This document shows positions 8,145 through 28,454 of a stretch of 64,000 nt of DNA, piece by piece. Position 1 is the first letter of the stretch; every line of letters starts with the position of its first letter. The position numbers and the translations under genes are program-made. Source of the stretch: a virus; IMG/VR virus record IMGVR_UViG_3300046673_000114, positions 1 through 64,000 of that record; one strand, 5' to 3'. The notes under the pieces are model-generated. The model was not told the origin of the DNA. It saw nothing but the letters and a program-made list of their open reading frames with translations, and ran no database searches.

Positions 8145-9581
8145 ATGGGAAGCTCGCAGAAACTAACTTTCGCCGGTCAAGACATCACGCAAGCACCGTA
8201 TAATGCAGTTATGACGATGCAAGCGAAGTATTGGTGGTTAGACGGCTTCACGTCGACACAGTATCCGACAAGCGCCACTTCTTTAGTGAATTCTAAGACC
8301 TATCTAAAGGATTGGGTTATCACGATTTATCTAAGAATCATCTCTCCTGATATGACTCGCGCGACGATGCAATCAAGTTATAATGCGCTTGCACAGCTTT
8401 TTAATCCGCTAAATGGTGACCAGCAGCTTATCTTCGATGAGTTTCCTCTATCGTATTTCATAGCGAAAGGTCAGAAGTTCGCTATAACGAAAGAGGATTC
8501 TGCGAAGCATATCATAGAACTCGAAGTCGATTTTGCCTGCACCGGCCCACCGCGTAGCTTAAGCGAAACGGTCGTGTCGAAAAACATAGCAACCTCACCA
8601 CAGAGTCTACCGATTTTTTCATTAGGCGACGTGCAAAGTTCTCCACGGTATCGCTTCACGGCCGCGCAGGCATACACCGGAAACGTTACAATTAGTAATT
8701 CCGTCACGAATGAGCAAGTCATATGGAATGGTGCGCTTGCAGCAAACGACGTCCTAGATTTTATTATGGACGTTGACTACGGAACGCCTTATACAGTTTT
8801 ACATAACGGCAATCTTTCTATTTCAACAATACAGGGGCCAGCGTGGCCTCATATACCACCTAACGATTCTAGAGTTTCATTAATGGGGCCACATAGCGGC
8901 ACGTTTGAAATTCGGTGGCGCGATAGGTGGCTAGTTGGACAACAGTCGTTAGGCTTACCGACGAATATCTTATTAAGCGCTAATTACGGCACGCCGTCTC
9001 TAGGACAAAACGTTACGTTTAACGTTCAGTTAAATAACACAATGGGGCCAATGTCGAAACCTATCATCGTTTATCATTATACCAATGGTCTTCGCGTTGA
9101 TGATTTCACTGCGACGACCGACGTAAACGGTCAGTATAGCCAGCCTCTTGAGATGGGCTTACCCGAAGACGCCGTTTATTATGCAGGATATAGCGGCGAC
9201 GATAAATATTCTCCAAGCATTAGTAGCGCGGTAACGGTAATTACTCGAGCGAATTCGAGACTTACGTTCACTGTATCGCAGACTAACGTTCACGTAAACA
9301 CAAATACGGTATTCTCCGGTCAGCTACAGTGGTGGAATCCGCTTAATAACGAATGGGAAACCGTACCTGTGCCGAACGAACCAATTCAATTATATTATTA
9401 TCCTAAAAGCGGTGGCGCAACCGTTGGCCCAACTACCTTCTTCACAGACGTTAGTGGTAATTTTACGTTTAACGGAAATTGGAGTAAGATTATAGATAAC
9501 GTCTATTACGTGTACTTCCCGGGCGACGGCGTATATGGCGCGGCACAAAGTCAGAACATAGAAGTTAGTACTTATGCGTAG
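8145..9581 (+). CDS. Distal tail protein (Dit-like) with C-terminal Ig-like domains
   Basis: 478 residues, starting one base after the tape measure stop, with GAGAGGT upstream. Residues 1 to about 290 match the Dit plan: an N-terminal belt strand region, a LTFAGQDIT opening, DFACTGPPR, and a later galectin-like part ending in FEIRWRDRW. Residues about 290-478 form two Ig-like beta domains with TTDVNGQYSQPL and FTDVSGNFTFNG, the signature of Big-type domains that bind surface sugars. Dit forms the hexameric hub at the tail tip. The added domains suggest extra host contact. Confidence 0.65.
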   Translation: MGSSQKLTFAGQDITQAPYNAVMTMQAKYWWLDGFTSTQYPTSATSLVNSKTYLKDWVITIYLRIISPDMTRATMQSSYNALAQLFNPLNGDQQLIFDEFPLSYFIAKGQKFAITKEDSAKHIIELEVDFACTGPPRSLSETVVSKNIATSPQSLPIFSLGDVQSSPRYRFTAAQAYTGNVTISNSVTNEQVIWNGALAANDVLDFIMDVDYGTPYTVLHNGNLSISTIQGPAWPHIPPNDSRVSLMGPHSGTFEIRWRDRWLVGQQSLGLPTNILLSANYGTPSLGQNVTFNVQLNNTMGPMSKPIIVYHYTNGLRVDDFTATTDVNGQYSQPLEMGLPEDAVYYAGYSGDDKYSPSISSAVTVITRANSRLTFTVSQTNVHVNTNTVFSGQLQWWNPLNNEWETVPVPNEPIQLYYYPKSGGATVGPTTFFTDVSGNFTFNGNWSKIIDNVYYVYFPGDGVYGAAQSQNIEVSTYA

Positions 9582-9765
9582 TAACGAAAGCAAAGACGAG
9601 CCGGTTATTAAGCTCGTCGAAAAAAATAGAATGTTAGTAATTCCCGAAGCGTTTTACGCGGGGGGATTGTATCGAACACCCTTCGATTTAGGGGTGAAAG
9701 AGTGGGAGCGCGTGCATTATCTGTACGCCTCAGATATTGAAATACTTCAAGAAAAAGGAGAGTAA
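9574..9765 (+). CDS. Small tail-operon protein (63 aa)
   Basis: ATG overlaps the previous stop by 8 bp. The charged N-terminus is followed by RMLVIPEAFYAGGLYRTPFDLG. No recognised family. Tight packing between the distal tail gene and the adhesin genes suggests a minor tail-tip component or assembly factor. Confidence 0.5.
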   Translation: MRSNESKDEPVIKLVEKNRMLVIPEAFYAGGLYRTPFDLGVKEWERVHYLYASDIEILQEKGE

Positions 9766-9770
9766 GTTAA

Positions 9771-10148
9771 ATGAGTTTAACTCAAACAGGATGGGCGTGC
9801 ATCGCATCATCTCTTGTTAACGACGCCTCATATAACCCGTTTAATAATGCAAACGCGTTTCTAGGTGTTGGCGACTCGAGCAATGCGTTCGTAAACACGC
9901 AAACGGATTTGCAGGGTTCGAATAAAACGCGGCAGGGAATGAACGCGAACTATCCCTCGAGAGCGAGTAACGTAATAACGTTCCAAGCGACATTCGGAAC
10001 AAGTCAGGCAAACTATCAGTGGAACGAAGACGGTATTTTTAACGCTTCGTCTGGTGGACAGATGCTCACGAGAGCCGTGGAAACGCTCATCACGAAAACG
10101 AGCGCAGTCTCGGTGGTTTTCACTAAAACTTTAACGATACAATCTTAA
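9771..10148 (+). CDS. Tail-tip / fibre-associated protein, WNEDGIFNA type
   Basis: 125 residues after a GGAGAG site. The segment YQWNEDGIFNASSGGQMLTR followed by a TKT...VVFTKTLTI strand is a recurring pattern in small structural proteins of phages and archaeal viruses near tail fibre genes. I infer a tail-tip structural role. It is followed after one base by the next gene. Confidence 0.55.
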   Translation: MSLTQTGWACIASSLVNDASYNPFNNANAFLGVGDSSNAFVNTQTDLQGSNKTRQGMNANYPSRASNVITFQATFGTSQANYQWNEDGIFNASSGGQMLTRAVETLITKTSAVSVVFTKTLTIQS

Positions 10149-10149
10149 A

Positions 10150-10596
10150 ATGAGTTATAGGCGCTTCTATAATCACAAGCGGCGTTATAAGAAAGAACGC
10201 AACGCGGAACTAGAACAACACCACGCACATAGCGACACGTATTACATACGAAACCCCGAGCACGCGGCTAACGTCGCGACGCCGGAGGGCGTTAAGGAGT
10301 TTAACATCGATAAGGAGAACTTCTCTGACGGGGTGAATATGCGTTTTAAAGTGATAGAACCAACCGTTACGGTAAAGAACTACACTAGCGACTTACCGCC
10401 GGATAAACGGACTATCTGCAAGACGTGTTTTCATAGTAAGAACCCGCGCGACATAAACGACGGGTTTTATAGGGTCTGGTGCAACGACGCGTTTAGGAAA
10501 GGCGGTAACGCAGAAAAACGCGAGCCCACTGATTCTAAATTTGTTAATAACGGCTGCCGTGATTGGCGACCTAAAAACGTAGATTGTATAGGTTAA
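10150..10596 (+). CDS. Cys-containing protein in tail operon, unknown
   Basis: 148 residues. A very basic N-terminus (SYRRFYNHKRRYKKER) is followed by a hydrophilic stretch and a C-terminal region with CKTCFHS, WCNDA and NGCRDW. Four or five cysteines could form a zinc site. No family recognised. The C-terminal pattern resembles the tiny Cys proteins of the accessory region (for example 53479 and 59276). Confidence 0.5.
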   Translation: MSYRRFYNHKRRYKKERNAELEQHHAHSDTYYIRNPEHAANVATPEGVKEFNIDKENFSDGVNMRFKVIEPTVTVKNYTSDLPPDKRTICKTCFHSKNPRDINDGFYRVWCNDAFRKGGNAEKREPTDSKFVNNGCRDWRPKNVDCIG

Positions 10597-10608
10597 GGAG
10601 AAAAGAAA

Positions 10609-10965
10609 ATGTTGGATATTACATTAACGAAAGAACAAGAAGAGCAATGTCGCTGTCCGACGTGCTCGACGCTTACACTAAATAAGCTCACCGGCGCACC
10701 ATTTTGTGCAAAAGGCACGAGTAAAAAAGCAATGGGGCTTAAGCTTCATAACGGCTGCTCGTGTATTGGCTGTCAAATGAGAAAAAAGCACGATATAGTC
10801 TGTAGGGGGGTTTTATATTGTATGCTCGAAGACGGAAAACATACACCCGGCGCGTTCGAAGAAGGCAATAAAGTAGGCGAAGCGTCGAAAGATGCACCGA
10901 ATAAAGTGGAAGTTGAAGTTACACCCGCTGGTGCGGATGCTGGCGCCATTGAATTAGAGAGGTAA
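10609..10965 (+). CDS. DUF2769-like Cys-rich protein
   Basis: 118 residues with AAGGAGA upstream. Cysteines follow C-x-C-x-x-C, F-C-x-x-G, G-C-x-C-x-x-C and Y-C, which is close to the archaeal DUF2769 pattern that I associate with methanogen genomes. The C-terminal 40 residues are acidic and Ala/Glu/Val-rich. A metal site is likely. Why such a protein sits in a tail operon is unclear; it may be a structural or redox component. Family call is from memory of the pattern. Confidence 0.5.
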   Translation: MLDITLTKEQEEQCRCPTCSTLTLNKLTGAPFCAKGTSKKAMGLKLHNGCSCIGCQMRKKHDIVCRGVLYCMLEDGKHTPGAFEEGNKVGEASKDAPNKVEVEVTPAGADAGAIELER

Positions 10966-10970
10966 AAAAG

Positions 10971-11516
10971 ATGGCAAGTCATATGTGGTCTAACGGAATA
11001 AATTACCTAACGGCCGGTCTATCGACAGGGGCAACTATTACACCTGCCGATATGGTTTCGTGGACGCAACCATATACAGGGGTTTCTGCTACCGCGACGG
11101 CACCGTATAACGCGTGGTCTGGTTACCTTCGTTGTTCGCTTAACTCGGGCATGGGAACCTACACCTCGAGCACGTTCGAAAACACACAAACAGAAATCAC
11201 CGGAACAAGTTACATCTCACTTGGTGCAGATATTACCGGCGCGGGCCACAATCAGACAAGCGTCTCGGTTAATAGCTCGCATATCGACTACGTAGCGAGT
11301 CAATCAGATACGTCACCAGAATGGCTAACGATGACGACAAATTCTCCGTATCCACAGTACGGCTCGATATTCGCGTCTACAGGGACTCGAAGCTCAAGTC
11401 CGGTTCTTTGTGTGTTCGACTTCGGTACTACGTATCAATGCACGGCTGGTACTTTTAGTATCACATTCGGCACAGACTCGGTTGCTCACACCGTATTCGC
11501 AATAACTGTATCGTAG
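10971..11516 (+). CDS. Putative tail fibre / adhesin protein (181 aa)
   Basis: Ser/Thr/Gly-rich beta protein of 181 residues. The only clear composition signal is the low charge and high Thr/Ser typical of fibre knobs and virion decoration proteins. The last strands FSITFGTDSVAHTVFAITVS suggest an Ig-like or jelly-roll domain. It begins the run of adhesin genes. A short imperfect hairpin follows at about 11549-11564 (CCCTT/AAGGG). Confidence 0.5.
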   Translation: MASHMWSNGINYLTAGLSTGATITPADMVSWTQPYTGVSATATAPYNAWSGYLRCSLNSGMGTYTSSTFENTQTEITGTSYISLGADITGAGHNQTSVSVNSSHIDYVASQSDTSPEWLTMTTNSPYPQYGSIFASTGTRSSSPVLCVFDFGTTYQCTAGTFSITFGTDSVAHTVFAITVS

Positions 11517-11588
11517 ATGAGGCGGGTTAATGCTCGTCTCGACCCTTTATTCTAAGGGACGTTCTATTCTAGCGGAGCTTATCATTAA

Positions 11589-11897
11589 ATGACACTTTAC
11601 TCGAAAGTCGGCACATTTACGACGCCAACGAGTACCGGCAATCAGACGGTTAGCGGCATAGGCTTTACGCCAGTTGCGGTTATTATATGGGGAATTGCAG
11701 ACGACGGCAATGGGTGGGTTAGTGACTCACAATTCGGTATGGGGTTTTCTGCATATAACTCGGCAAAAAGCGCATTTCAACAGGGTGCGACCTCAACGGC
11801 GGGGGCCAGTGGTGTAACTACTCGACAAACCCTTTTTCTTTTAACTAGCGGAGGTTATTTAGGACAGAGGCCTCAATTAGCGGAGCGTATATGGTAG
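11589..11897 (+). CDS. N-terminal adhesin fragment, probably broken from the next gene
   Basis: 102 residues. YSKVGTFTTPTSTGNQTVSG and FTPVAVIIWG are the opening strands of a fibre domain that normally is longer. The frame then ends at TAG 11895-11897, while the next ORF starts at 11891 in the -1 frame. That frame is open from 11849, so the two could once have been one protein, or be joined by a frameshift. Codon style also changes near 11840. Confidence 0.5.
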   Translation: MTLYSKVGTFTTPTSTGNQTVSGIGFTPVAVIIWGIADDGNGWVSDSQFGMGFSAYNSAKSAFQQGATSTAGASGVTTRQTLFLLTSGGYLGQRPQLAERIW

Positions 11898-14356
11898 TAG
11901 GGATTCCAACATACATTGCAGCGGTAGCAAGTGGAACGAGTGTCCTTACGGTATTTAACGTAGGCGCTGATGCAGTACCCTACGCAACGTACTCTATTGA
12001 TGGGGGGGCTACGTGGACCGCGTGGACTAATACTAACATAGGGGGTTATGGTGTCGTAGCCCCCCCAATAGCTGTTTCTTCCGCGAGCAACACCATCGAC
12101 CTTTTTGTTTATAACGGCACCTCTATTTATTGGAATCGTTGTACAAACGTTACAAGTCATACTTGGGCGGGTTTTACAGCACTCGCTTCACTTCCTTATG
12201 CCCCTTACACTGGCACTAATATGGCCGTCTCTTCACCAGGGAGCGGCGTTCTAGATATAGTATATACTGCTTCAACACAGGCCGTCTACTGGAACCATTA
12301 TAACGGTTCAACATGGAGCGGCTGGTCAACTCTCAGTGGTGGTACTACCTACACCGCCTCAGTTATGTCTCTCAGCACCACTAGCTTAATTGTAGGTGTA
12401 GCTGGTGGTGCTGGTGTTTTTTATTACAAACTGTATTCGGGCAATTGGGGGCCATGGACAAGTATTAGTGGGGCCACCCTCACAGGTGCTCCGTCTTCCA
12501 CTAAGTATTCCACCAACAACGTATTTTTTGCCATAGACGCCTCTAACAAGGTTTGGTGTTCAGTTAATTATGGCACCTTCGCCCAAATATCTTCCGGAGT
12601 AGGTTCACCCGTAGCCGTTGGGGCGGCCCGTACCTCGTCTGATACTGTTGTTGTTATACGGAATACTGCTGCAAGCAACTACCTTTATGCTGCTCATGAT
12701 ACAGGTTCGTGGGGTTCGTGGGCCGCAGTTGACTCAACGCACGCGCTTTCGACGTTTGGTCCGGTAATCATCGCAGGAGCAGCGGCAAACCAAGTAGACG
12801 TCTTTTATATCGATACAAATGGAGCTATATGGCACACCGCTTATGCGGGTACAAGCTGGACCACCCCCAACTCAGTACCAAATATTGCTCAAGATGCCAC
12901 AGTATCGCTTACACCAATCTCAAGCGCTGCGGCAACACAAGCACCGACGTTACGTGGTGACGCTAACGTACCCACACTTACTTCAATTTCAAGCGCGGCA
13001 GCGACACAAGCACCGACGATAGCGCGAGCGGACGCTAAATTAGCTACACTTACCCCGATTTCAAGCGCAGCAGCAGCTCAAGCACCGACGATAGCCGAAG
13101 CAGATTGTAACATACCAGCATTATCACCCATCACAAGCGCGGTCGCACCCGTCGCACCAGCATTGCGGGGTGACGCTAATATACCGACTTTAACGCCGGT
13201 TTCTAACTCAGCCGCGAGCGTGGCGGCTACTATCGCGCGAGCGGACTGTAACATACCCGCGCTCACACCGATTAGCTCAACTGCGGCGACAATTTCGTTA
13301 TCTTCTCTTATAATAAGCGTTGGTCTTACGTTATCCACAATTACTAACACCGTTGCACCTATTACGCCGACGGCCCGAGCTGATGCTATAGTACCCACGC
13401 TTACACCTATTAGCTCATCGGCTTCGATTATTTCGCCTACGACAGTAGTAAGCGTAGCTGTTTTATTAGCCGCGATTAACGCAACGGCCGCAGCTATAGA
13501 CGCTTCTATAGCTCAAGCAGATGCAATATTATCCCTCTTATCACCCCCGGGTGCGGTAGCGAGCGTCACATCACCAGCTCTCACAATTAGCGCCGCACTC
13601 ACACTTTCACCCATTAATGTTAATTCGTCTATAATAGCACTTTCTTCTCTACGTGCAGATGCTATTATCCCCTCACTTACACCGATAACAAGCACGGCAG
13701 CGACCGTAGGCGTAACCGTATCGACCGGCTCGTTTGTACATATTCTTCTCACACCTATTGGTTCAAACGCGGGGGTTATCGCTCCCGCGCTTCGTTCTGA
13801 CGCGGTTTTACCTACGTTAACACCCGTAACGAGCACCGCTGCGCCAGTTACCCCGCTAATATCGACGAGTGTGGCAATCATCTTAGCGACGATTGGTGCA
13901 ACTGCTATAGCAGTAGACGCAAGTGTTTCACAGGCAGACTCATTCATAAACGTTTCACCAATTCTCTCTTCAGCATCTACTTTCGATGTTTCGGTTTATG
14001 TTGGTGCGCTTCTTAGCATATTAGCCTCGGAAGCGCTCGTAATAAACATTCTCGACACGCAAAATGGTTTGTACTTACCAGAGAGCGGTCAATTATTCCA
14101 ATACGAACAAATAAGTCTTAATACAACTCTTGATAGAGTTATCTTAGTCGCTAGTGACATAATAAACGAAATTGCACTACTTACACCGATTGAATTTATA
14201 CTTCCCGAGACGCGAGTAGGTGAAAGCATAACACTTACCGATGAAGAAGGAAACGAAACCGATACGAGTGTATTAGAGAAAATATGGCGACCCGCTTCGA
14301 TACCGGAACCGGCTACGATTATTGTATTAGAGACGTCAAACGTGGAGGAAATCTAA
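11891..14356 (+). CDS. Large adhesin: lectin-like propeller plus tandem Ala/Thr/Pro repeats
   Basis: 821 residues. Residues 1 to about 330 show repeated W-x-x-W blades (for example YWNHYNGSTWSGW and GNWGPWTSI), the pattern of PLL-type fucose-binding beta propellers. Then come 23-24 residue repeats of the TPISSAAATQAPT type (12911-13264 and degenerate copies beyond), probably a long stalk. The C-terminal 120 residues are acidic with LTPIE-like motifs that recur in the next gene. The role is likely host surface binding at the tail tip. The propeller region (about 11890-12715) uses fewer CpG codons than flanking genes, suggesting recombinational replacement. Confidence 0.65.
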   Translation: MVVGIPTYIAAVASGTSVLTVFNVGADAVPYATYSIDGGATWTAWTNTNIGGYGVVAPPIAVSSASNTIDLFVYNGTSIYWNRCTNVTSHTWAGFTALASLPYAPYTGTNMAVSSPGSGVLDIVYTASTQAVYWNHYNGSTWSGWSTLSGGTTYTASVMSLSTTSLIVGVAGGAGVFYYKLYSGNWGPWTSISGATLTGAPSSTKYSTNNVFFAIDASNKVWCSVNYGTFAQISSGVGSPVAVGAARTSSDTVVVIRNTAASNYLYAAHDTGSWGSWAAVDSTHALSTFGPVIIAGAAANQVDVFYIDTNGAIWHTAYAGTSWTTPNSVPNIAQDATVSLTPISSAAATQAPTLRGDANVPTLTSISSAAATQAPTIARADAKLATLTPISSAAAAQAPTIAEADCNIPALSPITSAVAPVAPALRGDANIPTLTPVSNSAASVAATIARADCNIPALTPISSTAATISLSSLIISVGLTLSTITNTVAPITPTARADAIVPTLTPISSSASIISPTTVVSVAVLLAAINATAAAIDASIAQADAILSLLSPPGAVASVTSPALTISAALTLSPINVNSSIIALSSLRADAIIPSLTPITSTAATVGVTVSTGSFVHILLTPIGSNAGVIAPALRSDAVLPTLTPVTSTAAPVTPLISTSVAIILATIGATAIAVDASVSQADSFINVSPILSSASTFDVSVYVGALLSILASEALVINILDTQNGLYLPESGQLFQYEQISLNTTLDRVILVASDIINEIALLTPIEFILPETRVGESITLTDEEGNETDTSVLEKIWRPASIPEPATIIVLETSNVEEI
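12911..13264 (+). repeat. Five 23-24 residue tandem repeats in the adhesin stalk
   Basis: Units of 69 or 72 bp encode T-P-I-S-S-A-A-A-x-x-A-P-T-(I/L)-x-x-x-D-(A/C)-x-(I/V/L)-x-x-L. Five units fill this span exactly. More diverged copies continue to about 13900. Confidence 0.75.
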
Positions 14357-14357
14357 T

Positions 14358-17300
14358 ATGTTACCGCTTATTTATTACGTTCCTCAGAATAGCTCAACGT
14401 GGACGAATCTCGGCTCAGCAGGAACCGCGTATAACGGAAGCGTTAGTGTAAATAGATATAACGCACCAGACTCGACGCACGGCGCGCCGTTTTGGGGCCG
14501 AACTGATACGAACGATTATATTTGTTATAAAGGTACTGATATTGATAATCTAAATACAATCGGTTTCGAAATCGGTTTCGAATATGCTGCCTATAACGGA
14601 ACCGGCCTCGCAAAACTTTGGGATAAAGGCGTTGGCACGTTTTTCCTACAGATTAACGAAAACACACATAAACTACTTCTCTATCGAACAACTAATCTTT
14701 CCGGCGGCGGTCAGGGTGAGGTCTATTGGACCGCAACAACAACGTCACTCACATCAGGTAATGAGTATTATATCCAAGTTGGCTGGACGTGCGGCACGCC
14801 AGCGAGTCCGGGTACTCCGCACATATACATAAGCGCTAACGGCGGAACACCAGCATTACAGAGCCTAACATATTCGGGCGCGTCGAGTGGAACGTGGGCG
14901 AGCGACGCAGGCCTACCTGCAAATGTCTTTAACTATAGCTCAAGTTCTAATTGTCCGAGCAGTTCCGGCAGCTATGGTTTAACAGGATATCTATACGTAT
15001 TTCGACAGTACAACACCGACATATCGAGTTATATCACTAGCGCGAGTAATGGTTCATGGTACATAGATAAGCGTCGAATGTATTCGTGGATTACAAACTA
15101 TGGTAGTGGACTTAATACTTTCTTCGGCTATGAGACGATTAGCGGCAACTCGGCTTTCCCTAAAAGCGGCACGGCTATTGGAAACGTCGACCAACTTGCG
15201 GGATTTACCGGCCATTCTCATTACGATGGTTCATTATGTTATGCGCCACTAGGCACGAGTTACGCGCAGTGGGTATGGCAGAATAATAACGATTATATCT
15301 ACACAAACGGCGCGTATTCGCTTACGGCCCCGGCAATTAACGATGTAGCCGTTTTTTCGTCAGAGATTGCCTTTTATTATGACGGTAATTGGGGTTCCGC
15401 GACGTATCCGCGAATATTTTCGAAAATGGATTCTAGCTCAGGAGAGTTCACACTATATCTCGATGCGTCCGGCGGCGCTGACACTGGTAACCTTATTCTT
15501 CAGCGAGAGTGTACCGACGGTAGCATTGACACGTGGATGACTACCACGACAAAGTTAACGGCGGGTAACTGGTATGAAGTACAAGTCTTGTGGGTGTGTG
15601 GGTGTGGCCCTAGCTCGCCCCCGTACAGCGCACCAGTTATTCACATTAACACCGTCACTCAATACGTCGCTCATAATCAAATCGGCGGGGCGGATTGGGT
15701 TTTCGACGGAGCGGGTAATTTAGTAATTGGTAACCGCGACGGTTCGCTCGGGCTTGGCGAATGTATGCAGGGAAGCCTCGTTATCTTTAGATGGTATCCT
15801 TATAATGCGTCGAGTCTTTTCGCGTCGGATTACGCGAGCGATAGCCAGCAGTGGCCGCTAACCGCAAGTTCGATTTCGATTAGCGCACCGGCTTCGGCTA
15901 TACAGAGTCAGAACTTTACGATTAGCGGCACGCTTTCTTATGCGTCCGGCGGAATCTCCGGTGCGACTATCTCACTCTTAAACGCGGATACTATGGGTGT
16001 TATTACTACTACCACCACAGACGGTAGTGGCAACTATTCGTTTAGTATTAGTTCATCGACATTAGGCTCTAGCGACTTTAAAACCTCTTTTGCCGGTAAT
16101 TCTACGTATTCTAGTTCAATAAGTGCGGAAGTAACCGTTACTATATCATCCGGCATCATTTACGACGTCGACGGTGCGATTGTAACTAACTGTCAAGTAG
16201 AGTTTATAGGCTCGTCTTTTCCATCATCCGGCACAACGATAACAAACGTCGGACAAGCTTCGGGTGAGAACGGAACTGCATATCAAAATGATTATACGTT
16301 AGTAGCTGCCGGAGACGCGGGATGGGTGTTCCCGAATAATCCATCTGATATGATAACCGTACCTGCTAATGCGGTCTTAGATGATATGCAGGCGGTGACG
16401 TATGAATTTCTTGTTTATTATGCGGGTGGTAGTGGAAATTTATATTCTAAAGGGGACGCCTCAAATCTAAATTACCCCTTAATGTCTATACAGTTTAATT
16501 CCACAAGTAACTGCCTACAAGTTAATAAAGTCGCTTCTACTGGCACGCGTTGGAATACGTGGTTTACAACTACTACACCAGTAACGGCCGGTAACTGGTA
16601 TTTTATTCAGATAACGTGGAACGTCGGCACAACTGAAGGAACTGCAAATCCGATTTGTTATATTAATAATGTTAATCAAACGATTTCTCAGGCGCTAACG
16701 AACACTGGAAGTTGGACTACCGATGCAGGGGGTATCATATGTATCGGGAATGAGTACCCCGCTGCAAATCCGAGTCAGTTCTACGGGACTCTAGTAGTAG
16801 CTAGAATTCATAACGTTATCCTTACCTCCGGTGCAGGTAGTCAGCTAGAAGGTAATTATAACGCGAGTAAATGGCGCGCACCTACAATTAAAAACGCATA
16901 TGTAAACGTTGATGTGCCGGGTGCCGCTGCTGCACTAATCACACTAAGCAAAATACGAACCGACGCGAAGCTTAACGTTTCATCTATCGTTTCTAATGCG
17001 ACAGCAGTTAGTTCCGTTGTTTCTCGCGCAGACGCGAAAATTAACGTTGCCACTATTACGAGTACGGCCGCACCTGTAACGTGTATTCCGGGACTCGGGC
17101 ATTCTATTACCGTAGACGTACCGGGCGCGGTAGCTGCACCCATCACGCCATCCGCGTTTACTACCGGCATTACCTCGCCGGAAACCGACTCACTCGCCGC
17201 GTCTACAGAAGCGGGAAGTTTAAGTAACGTAACCGTAACCATAGCTGAAGCCGATTCCCTAGCGCCGTCTGAAAACGTTTTATCGAATACTTCAATAGCC

Positions 17301-20300
17301 GAAACGGATGCGCTCATAGCGTCAGAGACGCCGAACGTCGCGCTCGAGGCCGATGAGGTTAGTACCCTTACACCAATCGAGGCACCATCAACCGTAGCTA
17401 CATTAGCCTCTACCGAAATAGACACACTTATACCAATAGAAGCGTTAACGATTGAAGAAGATATAACGATAGGAGAAACCGACGCGCTAAGCGAAGTAGA
17501 ACAATCGGGAGTCGGTGGTAATTATGAGTACGTTAACGCATCAGAAGACATTATATTACTCAACCTCGAAACGCAAGCGTTAAGTGCGACCGCAGAAGCA
17601 GACGAGACGCAGGTTCTAACACCGGACGAAGAGGTTATAGATGAAGCTGATTTAACTGAAATCGATACGATTATACCCATAGAAGCGCCAGCAGGCGAGG
17701 TAGATGTCGGCGAGACTACTTTAATATCATCAACAACTGAGACTATCGATACCGAGGCGTACTATTCGCCGGTTATACACGAAACCGTTGTACTTACGCC
17801 GATAGAAGCAACCGGCACGGATAGCGGAATCGTAGCATCGGTAATCGTTAACGAGTTTATTACACTAAAACCTCTTGAATTAACCACCCCTCAGATTCCG
17901 GTGCTTGTCGCCGAACCGGAAATACTCGTCACTTTCGAAGAGATATTACCCGAGGTTGTTATCGATTATGCCGATAGCGATACGCTAGACATAACCGAAT
18001 CTATAAGCATCGAAGCGAAGTTCTCTCCGTTACAGGGACTCGTAGAAAGTGACGCGCTTAATCCTCTAGAAACGTCAACGTTCGCGTCGACGCTTAGTAT
18101 TAATGAATCTACGAAACTCGCGCCGTCTGAAACCGCGCATCTTACACTAGCAGAAGTCGAATATATAACGCATAACGAAGTGATATACCTCGACGCCGAG
18201 GACTCAACGCTTAACGACCCCGTTGTACTAATACAGACGCCACACGGTCCCGCGACGATAGACGCGCTTGAGGTACAAATTAACACTACTGAATCTAACA
18301 AGCTTAATTCTATAGAAGTCGCAGATATTAATCCGAATGTCTATCACGCACCACCTCCGCTAGTTGATTATGTCTTAGAAGTTCGAAAGAAGGACGGTAA
18401 AAATTGGGATTTAGTAGGCGTATTAGAAAACCGCGTCGCACCAGAGTTACAATGTGAAGTAGGTGCGGCCGACCAGCTTACCTTTAACCTCCCACTTTCC
18501 GACCCAAAATCGCTTTTATTTAACGCATCTAACACGCGTGGATTAGAGGTATGGTATTACGGTAGAGACTCGAAGCTTAAACAAGTTTTTACGATTACCG
18601 GCGGCGGTAAGACAGAAGGCTATCGAGACTACGGCGGAAACCCAGGTGGAAGCGGTAGCACGCTCGGAACCGGCTCGGGAGATTGGCTCTACGTTACCGC
18701 GATTGGGCCTGAGGCATATCTAACAATGTATTATGTCGCAGACTACACCGCAACGCAAAAGTATGTTTCTTCGATATTAAACGCTATTTGTGGAGAAATA
18801 ATAGATGATGGATATATAACCGCCATTCTCGTTGACCCTGCTCTTAATAAACTAATTGATATTGACTTATCGTGGGAAAACCTACAGAGTGCGTTAGGTA
18901 ACATCATTCAACAAACCGGCGGCTATATGCGCGTCTTAGTAAACTCGAATAACCCGTCGAGTCGAGTACTATATCTCTCAAGTGAAGTCGCTTCAGACAT
19001 ATTCCCGATTAATCTCGGCGGCGTGACGGCTGATTCGGTGGGCGTTTGCTCGTGGGGGCCAAATAGATTAGACTTATTCGCGCGAGGCGAAAACTCGAGT
19101 ATCTATCATAAATATTGGAACGGTACTTCGTGGTCTGGTTGGGCTACTCTTGGCGGAACCACTGATAGCGCGCCTACCGCGTGCTCGTGGGGGCCGAATA
19201 GAATAGACGTTTTCGTTCGCGGAACTGATAATATATTATATCAAAAATATTGGAACGGTGCGTGGTCTACATGGATACCACTCGGTGGCACGCTCACCTC
19301 TGCACCAGCCGCAGCTTCGTGGGGGCTAAATCGCATCGATGTAGTTGCTCGCGGAACGAACAATCAACTATACCACATATACTGGAACGGTATAAATTGG
19401 TCAACGTGGGGTACTCTAGGCGGCGACTGCACGAGCGACCCGGCTATAGTATCGTGGGGTGAAAACAGACTAGACGTCTTCGTGCGCGGCACCACTATGG
19501 AGTTGTATCATACGCGATGGGACGGTTCAACGTGGTCGACGTGGGAAAACCTCGGCGGTTATCTAACCACCGGCCCGGGCGCTGCGTCGTGGGGGGAGAA
19601 TAGAATAGACGTTTTCGCTGGCGGAGAGGATAACGAGCTAGAATGGCAATATTGGGGTGGCGACGTTGGTACTCCAATTCACCAGCAGGGAATCGCGTTC
19701 GACGGGACGTATTATTATTATACAACGGATTCTACGATTTATAAGCTCGACGCAAGTTATAACGTCATTGCGTCTAACGCAAACGCGGCCACGCAGTGTG
19801 GTGGTGACCACCTCGGCGGTTTAGGCATACATAGCGGAACTATATACCAATTCTGCACAACGGATGAGACGCCGCAAGTTATGATGGTTGGATTATTTAA
19901 TACGAGCGATTTAAGCTTTATAAGAAATGTCGATTTAACGAAAGTCGCCGGGAATCCGCCGACGTGGAGTACTTATAACATCGGCGGCGTGGGTGTAGAC
20001 GCTGCGAATAACGAACTTGTAGCGATTCACTTCGGTGACGCCGGTAGTCTGTCAGTCGTGGCCCCAAAGGTGTTTAAATTCAACTTGAGCACGTTTGCGT
20101 ACTTAGGTTACATTACTGGAACGGGCGACTTAGGAATCTATTATCAAGGCATCTGCCCGTATGATGGGGTTTATTATTACACCGTCGATAATTCGTCAAA
20201 CGCCAACTCACCTACGCATCTACTCGGCGGCGTGTATATGATGAACCCTGACGGAACGGGCCAGACGATGATAATACCTGCGTCTGTTTTCAATAATGCG

Positions 20301-21530
20301 GTATCCGATTTAGCGTGGAGTGGTGAGATAGAATCACTCAGCGTGACGGACGCGGGTATTGTTGTGCTTTGTGGTGGCTATATCTTTACCTTCTCTCTTG
20401 AACCGCCATATACATTACAAAGCGTCACACCGGGACTACAAGAATTAACGCCTGTGTGGTCTGGATGGGAGTCTTTAGGTGGTTACGTTCAATCATCACC
20501 GGCCGCTTGTAGTTGGGGATATGGAAGAATCGACGTGTTTCTCGAGGGGCCGGATGGTGCAGTCTATCAAATGATATACCAAGAAGACGTGTGGCAGCTA
20601 AAGAAAAAGAATAGCCTAACTAAACACGGACGCGTAGACTGTCCTAAATGCCCGAAGGCCGTGAGAAAAGAAGCAGCCGAGCGTAAAGAAGCAGCCGGAG
20701 ACGTAGAACCGCAAAACGTATGGTCTAATTGGAACGCGCTCGACGTAGACCAGATTCAGCCACCGGTCCCGATTATAAAATACGATGTATTCCCGAGTAT
20801 GGGTGACGTGATAAATAACGACTTAGGCGATAGCGCATACGACGGAGTTGCGTTTAATAACGGTTTCACACAACTTCAATGCGGCGTTGGTGCGTGGGTG
20901 TTTAACGCGCCGCAAGACGTCACGTGGACGAATAACATTCAAATTACGAGTGGGCCGGATATTACGGGATTAGCAGATATGACCCTTAGTATGTGCGTAT
21001 ATATCGACGCGAATCAAACGGCGGTAAATAACCCGAGGCTATTCTCGAAACAACAGGAGAACGGCGCGTTTGAGCTAATCTACGACACGTTTAACCAAGC
21101 ACTCATACTTAGACGATACACAACAAATAACGATTATGACGAGTGGAGAAGCGCACAGAACTCAGTTCCGATAGGCGATTGGTATTATATTCAGTTAATA
21201 TGGCAAAGTAGCGTTAGCCCGGAAACAGAGAGTCCGCCGGTTATTATCGTTGATAACGAGCAGTTAACACTTGTTAATACAGAAGCCGGAACGGGATGGT
21301 GGTCGCCCGACTACTCCAACAATCTCTATATCGGTAATAGCTACTTATTAGATGGCAGCGGTGATTTCGTTGGCATAATGAGCTTCTTTAGCCTATATGG
21401 CGCGGCTATAGTAGACCCAACAGACGACTTTAACACTAACGCGTGGCGGCGAGACCCCGCCGACGTAGACGCGCAGCTTGTTTATAATTTCTTCCCACAA
21501 ATAGTAACTTCCGAGGTGGCAAGTCAGTGA
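14358..21530 (+). CDS. Giant tail-tip protein: LamG domains, acidic repeats, N-terminal half of tail hub, PLL propeller
   Basis: 2390 residues. Approximate order: LamG-like (1-225), LamG-like (245-490), Ig-like (505-600), LamG-like (620-840), acidic E-T-D-x-L-x-P-x-E repeats (940-1330), tail hub N-terminal half (1335-1555), PLL propeller with SWGxNRxDVFxRG blades (1557-1770), an inserted second propeller-like domain (1773-2030), a last PLL blade (2031-2070), then another LamG-like domain (2140-2385). The hub part starts VLEVRKKDGKNWDLVGVLEN and includes LTFNLPLSDP, the classic opening of Tal/gp44-type baseplate hubs. The hub then stops where the family expects its second half, which lies in the next gene. 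The LamG, Ig and PLL domains probably bind glycans. Confidence 0.7.
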   Translation: MLPLIYYVPQNSSTWTNLGSAGTAYNGSVSVNRYNAPDSTHGAPFWGRTDTNDYICYKGTDIDNLNTIGFEIGFEYAAYNGTGLAKLWDKGVGTFFLQINENTHKLLLYRTTNLSGGGQGEVYWTATTTSLTSGNEYYIQVGWTCGTPASPGTPHIYISANGGTPALQSLTYSGASSGTWASDAGLPANVFNYSSSSNCPSSSGSYGLTGYLYVFRQYNTDISSYITSASNGSWYIDKRRMYSWITNYGSGLNTFFGYETISGNSAFPKSGTAIGNVDQLAGFTGHSHYDGSLCYAPLGTSYAQWVWQNNNDYIYTNGAYSLTAPAINDVAVFSSEIAFYYDGNWGSATYPRIFSKMDSSSGEFTLYLDASGGADTGNLILQRECTDGSIDTWMTTTTKLTAGNWYEVQVLWVCGCGPSSPPYSAPVIHINTVTQYVAHNQIGGADWVFDGAGNLVIGNRDGSLGLGECMQGSLVIFRWYPYNASSLFASDYASDSQQWPLTASSISISAPASAIQSQNFTISGTLSYASGGISGATISLLNADTMGVITTTTTDGSGNYSFSISSSTLGSSDFKTSFAGNSTYSSSISAEVTVTISSGIIYDVDGAIVTNCQVEFIGSSFPSSGTTITNVGQASGENGTAYQNDYTLVAAGDAGWVFPNNPSDMITVPANAVLDDMQAVTYEFLVYYAGGSGNLYSKGDASNLNYPLMSIQFNSTSNCLQVNKVASTGTRWNTWFTTTTPVTAGNWYFIQITWNVGTTEGTANPICYINNVNQTISQALTNTGSWTTDAGGIICIGNEYPAANPSQFYGTLVVARIHNVILTSGAGSQLEGNYNASKWRAPTIKNAYVNVDVPGAAAALITLSKIRTDAKLNVSSIVSNATAVSSVVSRADAKINVATITSTAAPVTCIPGLGHSITVDVPGAVAAPITPSAFTTGITSPETDSLAASTEAGSLSNVTVTIAEADSLAPSENVLSNTSIAETDALIASETPNVALEADEVSTLTPIEAPSTVATLASTEIDTLIPIEALTIEEDITIGETDALSEVEQSGVGGNYEYVNASEDIILLNLETQALSATAEADETQVLTPDEEVIDEADLTEIDTIIPIEAPAGEVDVGETTLISSTTETIDTEAYYSPVIHETVVLTPIEATGTDSGIVASVIVNEFITLKPLELTTPQIPVLVAEPEILVTFEEILPEVVIDYADSDTLDITESISIEAKFSPLQGLVESDALNPLETSTFASTLSINESTKLAPSETAHLTLAEVEYITHNEVIYLDAEDSTLNDPVVLIQTPHGPATIDALEVQINTTESNKLNSIEVADINPNVYHAPPPLVDYVLEVRKKDGKNWDLVGVLENRVAPELQCEVGAADQLTFNLPLSDPKSLLFNASNTRGLEVWYYGRDSKLKQVFTITGGGKTEGYRDYGGNPGGSGSTLGTGSGDWLYVTAIGPEAYLTMYYVADYTATQKYVSSILNAICGEIIDDGYITAILVDPALNKLIDIDLSWENLQSALGNIIQQTGGYMRVLVNSNNPSSRVLYLSSEVASDIFPINLGGVTADSVGVCSWGPNRLDLFARGENSSIYHKYWNGTSWSGWATLGGTTDSAPTACSWGPNRIDVFVRGTDNILYQKYWNGAWSTWIPLGGTLTSAPAAASWGLNRIDVVARGTNNQLYHIYWNGINWSTWGTLGGDCTSDPAIVSWGENRLDVFVRGTTMELYHTRWDGSTWSTWENLGGYLTTGPGAASWGENRIDVFAGGEDNELEWQYWGGDVGTPIHQQGIAFDGTYYYYTTDSTIYKLDASYNVIASNANAATQCGGDHLGGLGIHSGTIYQFCTTDETPQVMMVGLFNTSDLSFIRNVDLTKVAGNPPTWSTYNIGGVGVDAANNELVAIHFGDAGSLSVVAPKVFKFNLSTFAYLGYITGTGDLGIYYQGICPYDGVYYYTVDNSSNANSPTHLLGGVYMMNPDGTGQTMIIPASVFNNAVSDLAWSGEIESLSVTDAGIVVLCGGYIFTFSLEPPYTLQSVTPGLQELTPVWSGWESLGGYVQSSPAACSWGYGRIDVFLEGPDGAVYQMIYQEDVWQLKKKNSLTKHGRVDCPKCPKAVRKEAAERKEAAGDVEPQNVWSNWNALDVDQIQPPVPIIKYDVFPSMGDVINNDLGDSAYDGVAFNNGFTQLQCGVGAWVFNAPQDVTWTNNIQITSGPDITGLADMTLSMCVYIDANQTAVNNPRLFSKQQENGAFELIYDTFNQALILRRYTTNNDYDEWRSAQNSVPIGDWYYIQLIWQSSVSPETESPPVIIVDNEQLTLVNTEAGTGWWSPDYSNNLYIGNSYLLDGSGDFVGIMSFFSLYGAAIVDPTDDFNTNAWRRDPADVDAQLVYNFFPQIVTSEVASQ

Positions 21531-24043
21531 GTATAGTAACCGTAGAATCCGATGAGATTGCAGTTTTATTACCGTATGAACAGATTCCTTTTTCGAGTAT
21601 AGAAGCGGACGAAGTGTCTACGCTACTACTCGATGAGGTAACGCTTCCCGAATCGTGGTATCTAGAAGAAGCAGGAGTAAGCGTCGTTAGCACGCTTGTT
21701 CCGAACTTCGGTGCCGCTGGAACGGACTATCACGCTTATGGCGCGCAAAATGACTTTATAACGCTTCCGAGCGGCGCGACAGCGTGGCAGCTTAGCGGCA
21801 ATATGGATTATATAGCGATTCCTCGCGGCGTTAGTATTGATAACGTAACGCAAACGACCTTCGAATGGTTGTTCATCCTTAATGATTATAGTGGTAACCA
21901 CGCCGGTAGATTATGGTCAAAACGTCAGACTCACGACGGAAGTTTTGATGTTTACGTAGACGATATAAACGGCTGTATCGTAATTCAACGAGGCACGATT
22001 CTAAACGAGCTAGACGTGTGGCAGACGCCAAATAACGTAATAGACGTAGGTCAGTGGTGCAACCTTCAGATAACGTGGAACTGTGATATTTCGGCCGGTG
22101 GCGACGCGCCGATAATTATAATAAACGATACACCTCAAGAACTTCTTCACACGAACGTTGCGAATCCTGCTCTATGGGCGGATGATAGTAACGACGACGC
22201 GTTTATTGGAAATGTTATAGGTGGCGGCTATAATCTAAATGCGACAATAGCGGTATTTAGACATTTTACGACCATAAAAACCCCGTCGAAGCTTACTACG
22301 GACTATCTCGCCGACGTGTGGCGCACGAGTAATAAACAATTAGGCCCGATTACCGTCTCATCGGGACCAAGTAACGACACCGACCCGATACTCACTATTG
22401 AAAAGAATCTTAGTAACATCTACGCACAGACTGATTTCTCGACGGTCGTCACGCAATGCGAGCCGCGAGGCATAGGACAAAAGCCAGCAGAGCTTCGATT
22501 TAATAATCCTAATTATTATCCTAATGCACAAGCGTTACAGCTCTATACAACCGACACGAGTTGGGCGTATTTTAGACTTCAAAGTCCTTATGTTTATGCT
22601 AACGCTACATATTCTGGACAGCCGTTGCCTAGCACTATGCTCGTAGGAACCGGATTAACTGATTTCTGCAATATTTCGCCTACATTACAAGCCGATAGTA
22701 CATACCCCGACCCTAACATGGGAGAGTCACCGCCAGCACCTTATGACGGTCAGCCGATTGGACGTGATGACTTTGCTGGACACGGACTCGTTTTTAAACT
22801 AAACGCTAATACGCGTTTCACCGACGCTAGTTTTTTCTTATATAAAAAACCGGCAGCGACGGCCGGTCAAAAAGCGCATCAGTTTCTAGTAGGAATTTAT
22901 TATATACAAAACACCCCCGACGCGGCCCTAAATGAATACGTTCCATCTCAGGGGCCGTTAGTTTGGTATATCGGTGACCTCGACCAGATTCAGCCGGATA
23001 CGTGGGCGTGGTACACATTCCCCTTACAACAAGCAGCGATAAGTCATACACCGTGGGATTGGTACGCTCTAGTGATTTCAGTGTATCCGACGACCGGCGC
23101 GAATTGGGAAGGCGACATTCTTTGGGTCGGTTTTAAGATGACGAATGTAGAACCGACACAAAATACCCCGTATCAGTTTATGTGGACGTTCGCAGGTAAT
23201 CCCGCGTACTCTGCCGGAAGTAATGTTAAGAATTGGGCAAGCGCAGCAATGGCCGCGAAAGCACCGGGTGCTATGTCGCGCCCTGCTTGCGTTCTTCATT
23301 CAATAACAACAGATTTAACGAGCGAGTTTCAACAGAGTCTAAACGCGTGTCCGGGCTGGCAGCTTAAAATGCCGATAGCAAAATACTCGCCGACTTCGCA
23401 ATATTGGGCGCATTACCAACAAGCGCCGTGGCTTATCGATTGGGAGGCGTATTCGACAATGGGTAAAGTAGAAGGAACCTATAAATCAGACACGCTTTCC
23501 TCACACGACGCGCTCTTTAATGCCGGTGCAAATTATCTATCAACGGTGTCTAACCCGACTTATACAATTTCGCTAAGTGCATTAGACTTATACGATTTAG
23601 ACCCACAGAAGAATTGGGCGGAAGAGCTTCGTCTCGGAACGACGGTTATGGTACTCGACGCCGAGCTTAATATTCAAGAACAATGTCTCGTAACGAAAAT
23701 TACTAAAGATAACCTCGAGCAGCCTCACGACATACAGATAGAATTAAACAGTTTATACGCGACTGCGGCGAGGTCGATGGCGAACATAAATCAATCGAGT
23801 ATTACCTATCCAAAGTATCTAAGCGGCCAAACGGTCTCTGCACCGTATATAATGAGTGGTGCTTGCACTGATACGACCCCGGCATCACTCTACTTTGAGA
23901 TAAAAGAAGGGAGTACGCTTGTTCCGTCGGTTACGATAAGCATAAACCCGACACCATATCAGGTGGCGACGAGCACCGGCGTTACCTCTGATACAAGTAC
24001 CTCTACCGCGTTTAAAATGAAAATAGACGGTGTAGTGGTGTAG
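21527..24043 (+). CDS. Second tail-tip protein: LamG domain plus C-terminal half of tail hub
   Basis: 838 residues with GTG start overlapping the previous stop (GTGA) and GAGGTGG upstream, so the two are coupled. Residues 1-40 carry one more acidic E-x-D-E repeat and 45-265 a LamG-like domain. From about 275 it matches the second half of Tal-type hubs: ILTIEKNLSNIYAQTDFSTV, then VTQCEPRGIG, ending with ALDLYDLDPQKNW, LRLGTTVMVLDAEL and a DIQIELNSLY strand. Together with the previous gene it would rebuild a full baseplate hub with about 1100 foreign residues between its halves. Confidence 0.65.
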   Translation: MSIVTVESDEIAVLLPYEQIPFSSIEADEVSTLLLDEVTLPESWYLEEAGVSVVSTLVPNFGAAGTDYHAYGAQNDFITLPSGATAWQLSGNMDYIAIPRGVSIDNVTQTTFEWLFILNDYSGNHAGRLWSKRQTHDGSFDVYVDDINGCIVIQRGTILNELDVWQTPNNVIDVGQWCNLQITWNCDISAGGDAPIIIINDTPQELLHTNVANPALWADDSNDDAFIGNVIGGGYNLNATIAVFRHFTTIKTPSKLTTDYLADVWRTSNKQLGPITVSSGPSNDTDPILTIEKNLSNIYAQTDFSTVVTQCEPRGIGQKPAELRFNNPNYYPNAQALQLYTTDTSWAYFRLQSPYVYANATYSGQPLPSTMLVGTGLTDFCNISPTLQADSTYPDPNMGESPPAPYDGQPIGRDDFAGHGLVFKLNANTRFTDASFFLYKKPAATAGQKAHQFLVGIYYIQNTPDAALNEYVPSQGPLVWYIGDLDQIQPDTWAWYTFPLQQAAISHTPWDWYALVISVYPTTGANWEGDILWVGFKMTNVEPTQNTPYQFMWTFAGNPAYSAGSNVKNWASAAMAAKAPGAMSRPACVLHSITTDLTSEFQQSLNACPGWQLKMPIAKYSPTSQYWAHYQQAPWLIDWEAYSTMGKVEGTYKSDTLSSHDALFNAGANYLSTVSNPTYTISLSALDLYDLDPQKNWAEELRLGTTVMVLDAELNIQEQCLVTKITKDNLEQPHDIQIELNSLYATAARSMANINQSSITYPKYLSGQTVSAPYIMSGACTDTTPASLYFEIKEGSTLVPSVTISINPTPYQVATSTGVTSDTSTSTAFKMKIDGVVV

Positions 24044-24047
24044 AACG

Positions 24048-25055
24048 ATGACAACATACGCAGCGTATCAATTATGTGCAGAATCATTCTCAAACTATGC
24101 TCAACTTAAAAGTCAGGGATTTATTGACCTCGTTCTAATTGAAAATATAAATAGTAGTTGTAACGCGTGTCCGGTTCCGCAGGGCTTTATAAACGGATGT
24201 ACTGCGCAGGGAATGGGTTCGCTCTTAAATAACGGTAATGACGCTGGCGGAGGTGGGGGTGGCGCGAATCAGTCATACTATGCCGGACTAAAAAAGCAGG
24301 GATTAAGTGGGGCCGGTGGTGAGTCTGAAAGTCTAGATGAAGTTAACGCCATTTTAGCAAACACAGATAGTACGTTTGTCTTTATGAACTATGGTGGACA
24401 GGGAACCGGCGGCCCAACAGGTAATAATAACATATGGGCTTCGCAGGGTGGTCACTGCTCGTATAGTGGTGGTGCAACGATAGGCTCAGGACAAAAAGTC
24501 TCTTCGTTTATAGAACCTTACGCACCGGGACTAATGTCGACTGAAGAGGTAGAAACCGAAGCCGGGTACAATAAAGACGCTGGTTGTTTTGAGGTTGGGA
24601 TTTTAATAGTAGATTGGTTCCCCGGTGCTAATTATGCGGGATATGCAGACGCGGTAATATCCTCAGGAGCTACCTTCGGGGGTTTTCAGTTCTGGTATGT
24701 AGAAGGAGACAGCGCGAGCGGAAGTAATAATTGGGGACCCGGAAGTAGCGATATAAATAATATGATGAAACAGTTTCCGCCGAATACTAAAAACATAGTG
24801 CAGCGCGCCGGTGGGTCGTCACCCGGTGGCGGCGGAGGTGGGGGGTCGGGGCCCGGTAGTAATATTCCGGCAATCACAGGCGGTAATACGTTCGGCGGTA
24901 ATAGTGAGGTTGATATTTTACCATATCTAACGCAAAATCATCAGGGTCAGCCAACGCCGGGTGTACACTACGTAGAGCTTAGTTCGGCAGATGGAATACG
25001 CGCACAAGTAACCGCTTCAGTACGCGTACGAACTTGGCAGCCAAAGGAGATGTAG
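24048..25055 (+). CDS. TIM-barrel-like putative glycan-degrading tail enzyme
   Basis: 335 residues. The first 250 alternate strand and helix: FIDLVLIEN, LLNNGNDAGG (59-68), LSGAGGESES (86-95), FVFMNYGGQGTGG (110-122), VGILIVDWFPG and GFQFWYVEG (about 211-219). Strand ends rich in Asp, Glu, Asn and Gly fit a (beta/alpha)8 hydrolase such as GH25-like lysozymes, but I recognise no known family. A Gly-rich hinge leads to a 68-residue C-terminal domain that is duplicated in the next gene and may anchor both to the tail. A paralog of the catalytic part is at 49838. Function is inferred. Confidence 0.5.
   Translation: MTTYAAYQLCAESFSNYAQLKSQGFIDLVLIENINSSCNACPVPQGFINGCTAQGMGSLLNNGNDAGGGGGGANQSYYAGLKKQGLSGAGGESESLDEVNAILANTDSTFVFMNYGGQGTGGPTGNNNIWASQGGHCSYSGGATIGSGQKVSSFIEPYAPGLMSTEEVETEAGYNKDAGCFEVGILIVDWFPGANYAGYADAVISSGATFGGFQFWYVEGDSASGSNNWGPGSSDINNMMKQFPPNTKNIVQRAGGSSPGGGGGGGSGPGSNIPAITGGNTFGGNSEVDILPYLTQNHQGQPTPGVHYVELSSADGIRAQVTASVRVRTWQPKEM
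24852..25055 (+). repeat. 204-bp direct repeat, copy 1 (C-terminal tail-anchor domain)
   Basis: Aligns without gaps to 25856-26059 at an offset of 1004 bp, both ending at a stop codon. Differences are mostly at third codon positions. It encodes a 68-residue domain ending VRVRxWQPKxM. Confidence 0.85.
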
Positions 25056-27330: not shown

Positions 27331-27362
27331 GTCAATTACCCACGCTAAAGCGATGGGCTTGT
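27331..27362 (-). mobile_element. tnpB 1 right end with guide-RNA (omega/reRNA) 3' hairpin
   Basis: CCCACGC-TAAA-GCG-A-TGGG folds into a hairpin at 27339-27357, just past the tnpB stop, and ends in AATTGAC on the minus strand. In IS200/IS605 elements the 3' end of tnpB and the right end encode the guide RNA. The GCTAAAGC core also occurs next to tnpB 3 and at 28505. Confidence 0.6.
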
Positions 27363-28454
27363 ATCTCCTTCAACTTTTAGGGATACAATAGGCTGATTGA
27401 CGGCAGCCCTCGAAGCGATGTTCTTTGCCGCATTTATATCGGCGTTTTCAGTGTATCCACACGCAACGCAAACAAACTCGCTCTGTGTCTTGCGGTTCTT
27501 CTTGTCAATGTGTCCACACTCTGAACACTGCTTCGACGTGTTTCGCGGGTCGATTAGATGGACGGGAACGCCGTTGAGTTTCGCTTTGTAGTCTACGAAC
27601 CATCTCAACTGGCCGAACGCCCACTTACCGAGTCTACCACGCTGTGCCTTTCTAACCGTTGTCCGAGAGCGTATGTGCGTCAAGTCCTCTAATACAATCG
27701 CTCTCTTTGTGTCTTTGGCTATTCCAACAATAACTTTTGAAATACAATGATTGAGATTCGTCTTAAACTTCCGTTCTTTGCCGCTCGTCCGCTTCAGATG
27801 CCGCTTCGCGCTCTTGGTTCCTTTCGACTGAAGTGCTGACTTTAGCTTCGTGTAGCGCGTTCTAACAGCATCGGCCTTATCGCCACTGAAGTGCTGACCG
27901 TCGCTTGTGGTTGCGATATTGACAATTCCCAAGTCTACACCTAAGTAGCCTTCCGCGTTGTATTCTGTCACCCCTTCAACTTCCACGACCACGCAGAGAT
28001 AGAACGTTCCCTTTTGAAGTATCAAGTCGGCTTGTCCTCTGACTCGTCGCTGTTCAAGTTGGGCGTAGTCCCCGATTGAGAACGGTATGAGCTTTCGACC
28101 GTCGAGAGTCAAGATTGAAACCGAATCGAGAGACTTGAACGATAATATTCTTTGGTCATAGACAACAGCGCTGTGTGGTTTGAACGTGTGTAGCTCTTGC
28201 CGGTGTCCTTTGCCACGGTATGACTCTGAGACTTTGGCTATCGCTCTGACTGCTAACTGTGCCGATAAACCGTAGGTATCTCGAATATAACGATAATGCT
28301 GCTTTTGAAGCGTCCGTTTACCGAATACTCCTTCTTGATAGGAGACTGACGAAACGTAGTTGCACGCTTCGTTGAACCGTTCCATTGTGGTTAAGAGGGC
28401 AGCATATTGCTCGTCGGTCGGATTGAGCTTTGCTTTAACGGTTAGCAGCATCAT
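27345..28454 (-). CDS. tnpB: TnpB RNA-guided endonuclease (IS200/IS605 family) 1
   Basis: 369 residues. Conserved parts are visible: a helical N-terminal region, RuvC-I GYLGVDLGIVNIA, RuvC-II AIVLEDLTHIR, a four-Cys zinc finger (KQCSECGH and FVCVACGY) and RuvC-III NADINAAKNI. All acidic catalytic residues (D, E, D) are present, so it is probably active. TnpB uses RNA from the element's right end to cut DNA and retain or spread the element. No tnpA is adjacent. It faces its neighbours, and the element seems to interrupt a promoter region. Confidence 0.9.
   Translation of the reverse strand: MMLLTVKAKLNPTDEQYAALLTTMERFNEACNYVSSVSYQEGVFGKRTLQKQHYRYIRDTYGLSAQLAVRAIAKVSESYRGKGHRQELHTFKPHSAVVYDQRILSFKSLDSVSILTLDGRKLIPFSIGDYAQLEQRRVRGQADLILQKGTFYLCVVVEVEGVTEYNAEGYLGVDLGIVNIATTSDGQHFSGDKADAVRTRYTKLKSALQSKGTKSAKRHLKRTSGKERKFKTNLNHCISKVIVGIAKDTKRAIVLEDLTHIRSRTTVRKAQRGRLGKWAFGQLRWFVDYKAKLNGVPVHLIDPRNTSKQCSECGHIDKKNRKTQSEFVCVACGYTENADINAAKNIASRAAVNQPIVSLKVEGDTSPSL

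Follow-up and report, generated by a model that had tools for sequence, protein, structure and literature searches.

The window, i.e. the 64,000 bases analysed here, covers bases 1-64000 of a virus record 80,483 bases long. The baseplate hub that it encodes is probably built from two proteins, the cut falling at one surface loop and lectin-type modules being carried on the cut ends. Hubs of the gp27 type are common to phage tails, tailocins and type VI secretion systems, and usually consist of one chain. The window record contains the gene order tape measure, Dit and hub that characterizes gp27/Tal-type baseplate hubs, and the hub parts lie in two genes, referred to as gene 1 and gene 2 (Table 1). 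An earlier note on this DNA had placed hub parts in these two genes, with a GTGA boundary between them and lectin-type domains at one hub loop, and all of this was borne out. Moreover, the rest of the 80.5-kb record yielded no intact hub, one of the findings that the note had named as counter-evidence.

Table 1. Features of the hub region and adjacent tail genes in the window.
Feature	Position	Strand	Evidence or content
Dit (distal tail protein)	8145..9581	+	weak SPP1_Dit and Sipho_tail Pfam matches; conserved in relatives
Gene 1, 2390 aa	14358..21530	+	LamG-type modules, linker repeats, hub N-half, propeller region, LamG
Hub N-half, first beta-barrel and alpha/beta domain	18354..18998	+	AlphaFold2 model, Foldseek, VIA; homologous in L012-L016
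DUF346 (PF03984) propeller region	19011..20750	+	5 PF03984 stretches, E 4.7e-22
LamG / ConA-like lectin domain closing gene 1	20763..21455	+	PF13385 over cut-off; alignment
Shine-Dalgarno-like GAGGTGG, 7 nt upstream of gene-2 GTG	21513..21519	+	sequence; duplex energy -7.4 kcal/mol
GTGA overlap, gene-2 start on gene-1 stop	21527..21530	+	sequence
Gene 2, 838 aa	21527..24043	+	linker, LamG-like domain, hub C-half
LamG-like domain opening gene 2	21680..22330	+	alignment to gene-1 LamG; blastp to L012
Hub C-half start (TIEKNLSNIY...VTQCEPRG motif)	22382..22540	+	alignments; PF06605
Insert inside C-half, about 290 residues	22541..23419	+	present in split and unsplit relatives
Rest of C-half, second ring-domain region	23420..23866	+	46-47% identical to L013/L014; PF06605 to profile end
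Gene after hub	24048..25055	+	conserved; 43% identical to L014 12410-13240

The N-terminal half of the hub (N-half) occupies residues about 1335-1545 of gene 1. Its sequence on its own had no Pfam match and no PDB sequence match, a profile search returned essentially antibody light-chain noise, HHalign against Listeria phage A118 gp18 gave no significant match, and annotated phages searched with the N-half and with the L014 genes yielded none. The AlphaFold2 model, built on an alignment of six rows, reached a pLDDT of 80.9 and a pTM of 0.77, and was ordered as far as its final strand (about residue 210 of 221), disorder setting in beyond. Foldseek matched this model to gp27-type hubs with E-values from 1e-6 to 1e-3, the solved structures including 80alpha Tal, Listeria gp18, T4 gp27 and VgrG, and the VIA Z-scores were 12.2 (80alpha chain 6v8i_AE), 9.8 (3gs9) and 8.7 (1k28_D, a chain of the T4 cell-puncturing device). 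The N-half is thus predicted from its model to adopt the gp27-type hub fold. In T4 gp27, a barrel is followed by an alpha/beta domain and then by a second barrel with an inserted domain; by analogy, the N-half would correspond to the first two domains in this order, presumably HDI and HDIII, and the C-terminal half (C-half) to the last two. This correspondence is approximate, as the VIA match ranges reach residue 280-310 in many single-chain hubs, beyond the inferred cut.

The C-half spans residues about 268-754 of gene 2, which matched PF06605 (Prophage_tail) above cut-off (E 1.9e-14) from profile position 62 or 88, in whole-gene and fragment scans respectively, to position 250. The same family was found above cut-off in L014 and L015, and in L013 only when scanned as a fragment. 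The AlphaFold2 model of the C-half was poor (pLDDT 39.9), so its fold assignment comes solely from PF06605. No match was obtained in a PDB search with the single sequence, the profile search found nothing, and annotated phages gave one weak match, in an Enterococcus phage; HHalign against A118 gp18 showed a weak match at the C-terminal end. The intact A118 gp18 (342 residues) has PF18994 at 5-90 and PF06605 positions 1-250 at 92-333. With the C-half beginning at profile position 88 in the window and 96 in L014, the interpolated cut site falls at about residue 180-188 of A118 gp18.

Five related records were compared: L012 (IMGVR_UViG_3300044470_000050), L013 (IMGVR_UViG_3300046673_000058), L014 (IMGVR_UViG_3300039326_000029), L015 (IMGVR_UViG_3300038428_000087) and L016 (IMGVR_UViG_3300041416_000014). 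L014 and L015 are close kin and were counted as one lineage, while L016 is clearly more distant. The search for relatives with an unsplit hub proposed in the earlier note retrieved L012 and L013. In L012, both halves lie within one uninterrupted ORF, at least 2,482 residues long, in which positions 970-1183 correspond to gene-1 residues 1342-1546 (45% identical, E 5e-51) and the beginning of the C-half matches around residue 2314 (42% identical). In L013, a 3,053-residue open frame holds every part. The hub of L014 and L015 is cut at the same loop into ORFs 9584-10642 and 10639-12408, which share an ATGA overlap, with no lectins and nothing inserted at the cut. In L016, the N-half ends in the same way, ATGA included, and the contig stops 14 bases later, before any C-half. 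The two parts are therefore halves of one hub, since L012 and L013 carry both in one ORF, the N-half model matches solved gp27-type hubs, and the C-halves of the window and L014 cover the latter part of the PF06605 profile of A118 gp18. A scan for the junction motif returned L014-L016 and no further records, and no relatives were found in the genome_contigs collection.

About 1,110 residues separate the halves in the window (gene-1 residues about 1547-2390 and gene-2 residues 1-267), and the border between the genes sits between two LamG-type domains, inside neither. The earlier note had described two propellers and LamG domains in this interval. One propeller was confirmed as DUF346, while the second had no family match (segment 19656-20480, within the propeller region and followed by further DUF346-like sequence); the LamG domain of gene 1 passed the PF13385 cut-off, and that of gene 2, which had no Pfam match of its own, was assigned by alignment only. 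Judging from the PF13385 and PF03984 matches, modules appear to be inserted within a structural domain of the hub, as in evolved Tals. The same loop is filled in the unsplit hubs of L012 and L013 by about 990-1,130 residues of LamG-type and propeller modules. The earlier suggestion that lectin insertion split the hub was rejected, as L014 and L015 are split without lectins and L012 and L013 hold about 1,000 module residues unsplit; for the same reason, the cut can be regarded as natural, recurrent and separable from the lectins. No repeat of the linker DNA at the start of gene 2 was found elsewhere. In L012 (about 15170-16051) and L013 (about 8336-9988), another propeller interrupts the hub's first beta-hairpin, where the window has no insertion. 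The gene preceding gene 1 (11891-14356) contains many similar repeats of the type TPISSAAATQAP.

An unrooted N-half tree placed, with strong support, the window between L012/L013 and L014/L015/L016, so that unsplit hubs with modules, the split hub with modules and the split hubs (compact in L014 and L015) follow one another along it. As the tree is unrooted, it is compatible with both fission and fusion. If the unsplit state were ancestral and the root lay towards L012/L013, one fission would suffice, the lectins having disappeared on the L014-L016 side or been acquired twice. For Dit and the tape measure, the window was nearest to L012 and L024, while its C-half was nearer to L014/L015, hence the hub and its neighbouring genes may differ in history.

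Three other explanations of the gene border were weighed against a hub made of two chains. That the border reflects an indel introduced by sequencing or assembly, or a recent mutation disabling an otherwise fused gene, is unlikely. A single-base change could join the frames, L012 and L013 are unsplit, and the junction is covered by one assembly only: three near-identical contigs of the same phage from other samples (L006, L007 and L010; the first two 97-100% identical to the window) provide no check on it, because none extends into the hub region. However, the same kind of cut occurs at the same loop in three separate records (L014, L015 and L016), the boundary falls between two lectin-type domains rather than inside one, and the start of gene 2 has a good ribosome-binding site, its duplex energy being attained by only 2.7% of start-like codons in gene 1.

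Slightly less probable still is programmed -1 frameshifting at the overlap, which would also yield a full-length fused hub beside the short gene-1 product. The second frame is at -1 in all four split cases and open for 10-60 codons upstream of its start, and the junction codons of L014 and L016 are unusually conserved, the final codons being the same in 6 of 7 positions with identical residues compared to 28% elsewhere, a pattern noticed post hoc that could reflect exchange as well as constraint. Yet the -1 relation is automatic with any ATGA or GTGA overlap, a slippery heptamer (X XXY YYZ) is absent from all four junctions, and Shine-Dalgarno-like sites precede the second start in each of them. 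The two-chain hub also agrees with the differences between the N-half genes of L014 and L015, which concentrate on third codon positions (45/15/4 at positions 3/1/2) up to base 10609, 30 bases ahead of the overlap, indicating that this gene is translated nearly to its stop.

That the hub half in gene 1 is a decaying or alternative remnant, with another, unrecognised protein as the working hub, is very improbable: the window record (G000) is linear and may be incomplete, and the N-half alone is invisible to sequence libraries, but the N-half of the window shares 47-55% identity with those of the five other members, many positions being invariant, it follows the tape measure and Dit, and each record contains a single significant N-half and no more than one C-half, the latter being present wherever the contig extends that far. 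No second convincing N-half or second PF06605 match was found in any record examined; the N-half match at 50744-50923 was marginal (E 0.001, 14 bits) and is probably due to chance.

In the favoured two-chain hub, gene 1 would supply the first of the ring-forming barrels together with the alpha/beta domain after it, and gene 2 the remaining ring domain with the domain inserted in it, the cut lying in the loop between these halves. Separate translation of the two genes is expected to be coupled through the GTGA overlap and the ribosome-binding site, so that both chains would be made together and in more closely matched amounts. In gp27-type hubs, the ring in contact with the Dit hexamer is made up of the two barrels in alternation. 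A ring formed from two proteins is mechanically plausible here, since HDI of lambda gpL and HDII of gpJ form such a ring (PMC10721106). By analogy with lambda gpL/gpJ, three copies of each chain may interlock below the Dit ring, and the lectin-type modules on the new chain ends may project outward and bind sugars of the host surface.

The earlier statement that no hub like this had been described was too strong, as divided hubs and insertions in hub domains are already known. In lambda (gpL and gpJ) and RcGTA (gp13 and gp15), the four hub domains are divided between two proteins, gpL and gpJ jointly forming the last tail ring (PMC10721106). The window resembles these systems at the gene level, with hub domains split over two proteins from nearby genes. 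In lambda and RcGTA, however, the first protein comprises HDI and part of the HDII-insertion with an iron-sulphur domain (PMC10721106), whereas the first half in the window has two domains, inferred to be HDI and HDIII, and its N-half sequences contain no four-cysteine cluster and only a few scattered cysteines; it therefore lacks the combination of HDI and a four-cysteine iron-sulphur domain of the lambda type. The window genes also differ by their 4-nt overlap and by the lectin-type domains on the cut ends. Similarly, the core that is a single chain in T5 pb3 is formed in JBD30 by the hub gp53 and the upper baseplate protein gp50, so that one chain in one phage equals two proteins in another, but the JBD30 arrangement is that of a Gram-negative siphophage and no lectin cassette is described at its cut (PMC11445458). 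Evolved Tals of Brussowvirus SW13/TP-778L and other siphophages have modules within the gp27-like structural domain (PMC9437275, PMC7291167). In contrast with the window, these are single chains and carry lysin modules instead of LamG and DUF346, and their insertion, between sub-domains 3 and 4, is by motif order more like the insert inside the window's C-half (22541-23419) than the split loop. Listeria A118 gp18 (3gs9), which also matches PF06605, and 80alpha Tal share the hub fold of the window, but are intact, compact and single-chain.

What appears to be new, as far as the sequences indicate, is the cut site, the four-base overlap, and the occurrence of cutting and module insertion at the same loop in separable combinations. 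A non-exhaustive search of the open-access literature found no publication describing such a same-loop cut and module family. With somewhat less than even confidence, we tentatively propose a further type of hub division, in which the cut lies between the two domain pairs and is retained in divergent phages through a conserved stop-start element; the loop would have become a gene border at which the chain ends can exchange lectin cassettes, and relatives would have undergone fission or fusion. The natural series of unsplit hubs with modules, split hubs with modules and compact split hubs reveals a loop tolerating both breakage and very large insertions. It would inform how tail tips acquire host-binding modules, and offers natural cut points for tests of hub reassembly.

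Several other genes were observed in these records. L014 encodes, a short way downstream of the hub (13241-15235), a cysteine protease of the papain family (PF00112) whose sequence is broken by an intein (PF14890, E 7.3e-17) bearing an HNH motif. A papain-family protease is likewise present in the record of the window, at L009 7604-8851 (record position about 71604-72851; PF00112, E 3.4e-15); weak Kelch-like repeats follow it, and it gave no intein match. A TnpB-type gene (PF07282, PF01385) lies on the minus strand of the window at 27345-28454, and a pair of TnpA-like and TnpB-like genes occurs close to the end of the record (L009 14970-16471). Finally, several small HNH-like genes were found downstream of the terminase (L009 6542-7231 and 9089-9727), suggesting homing elements.
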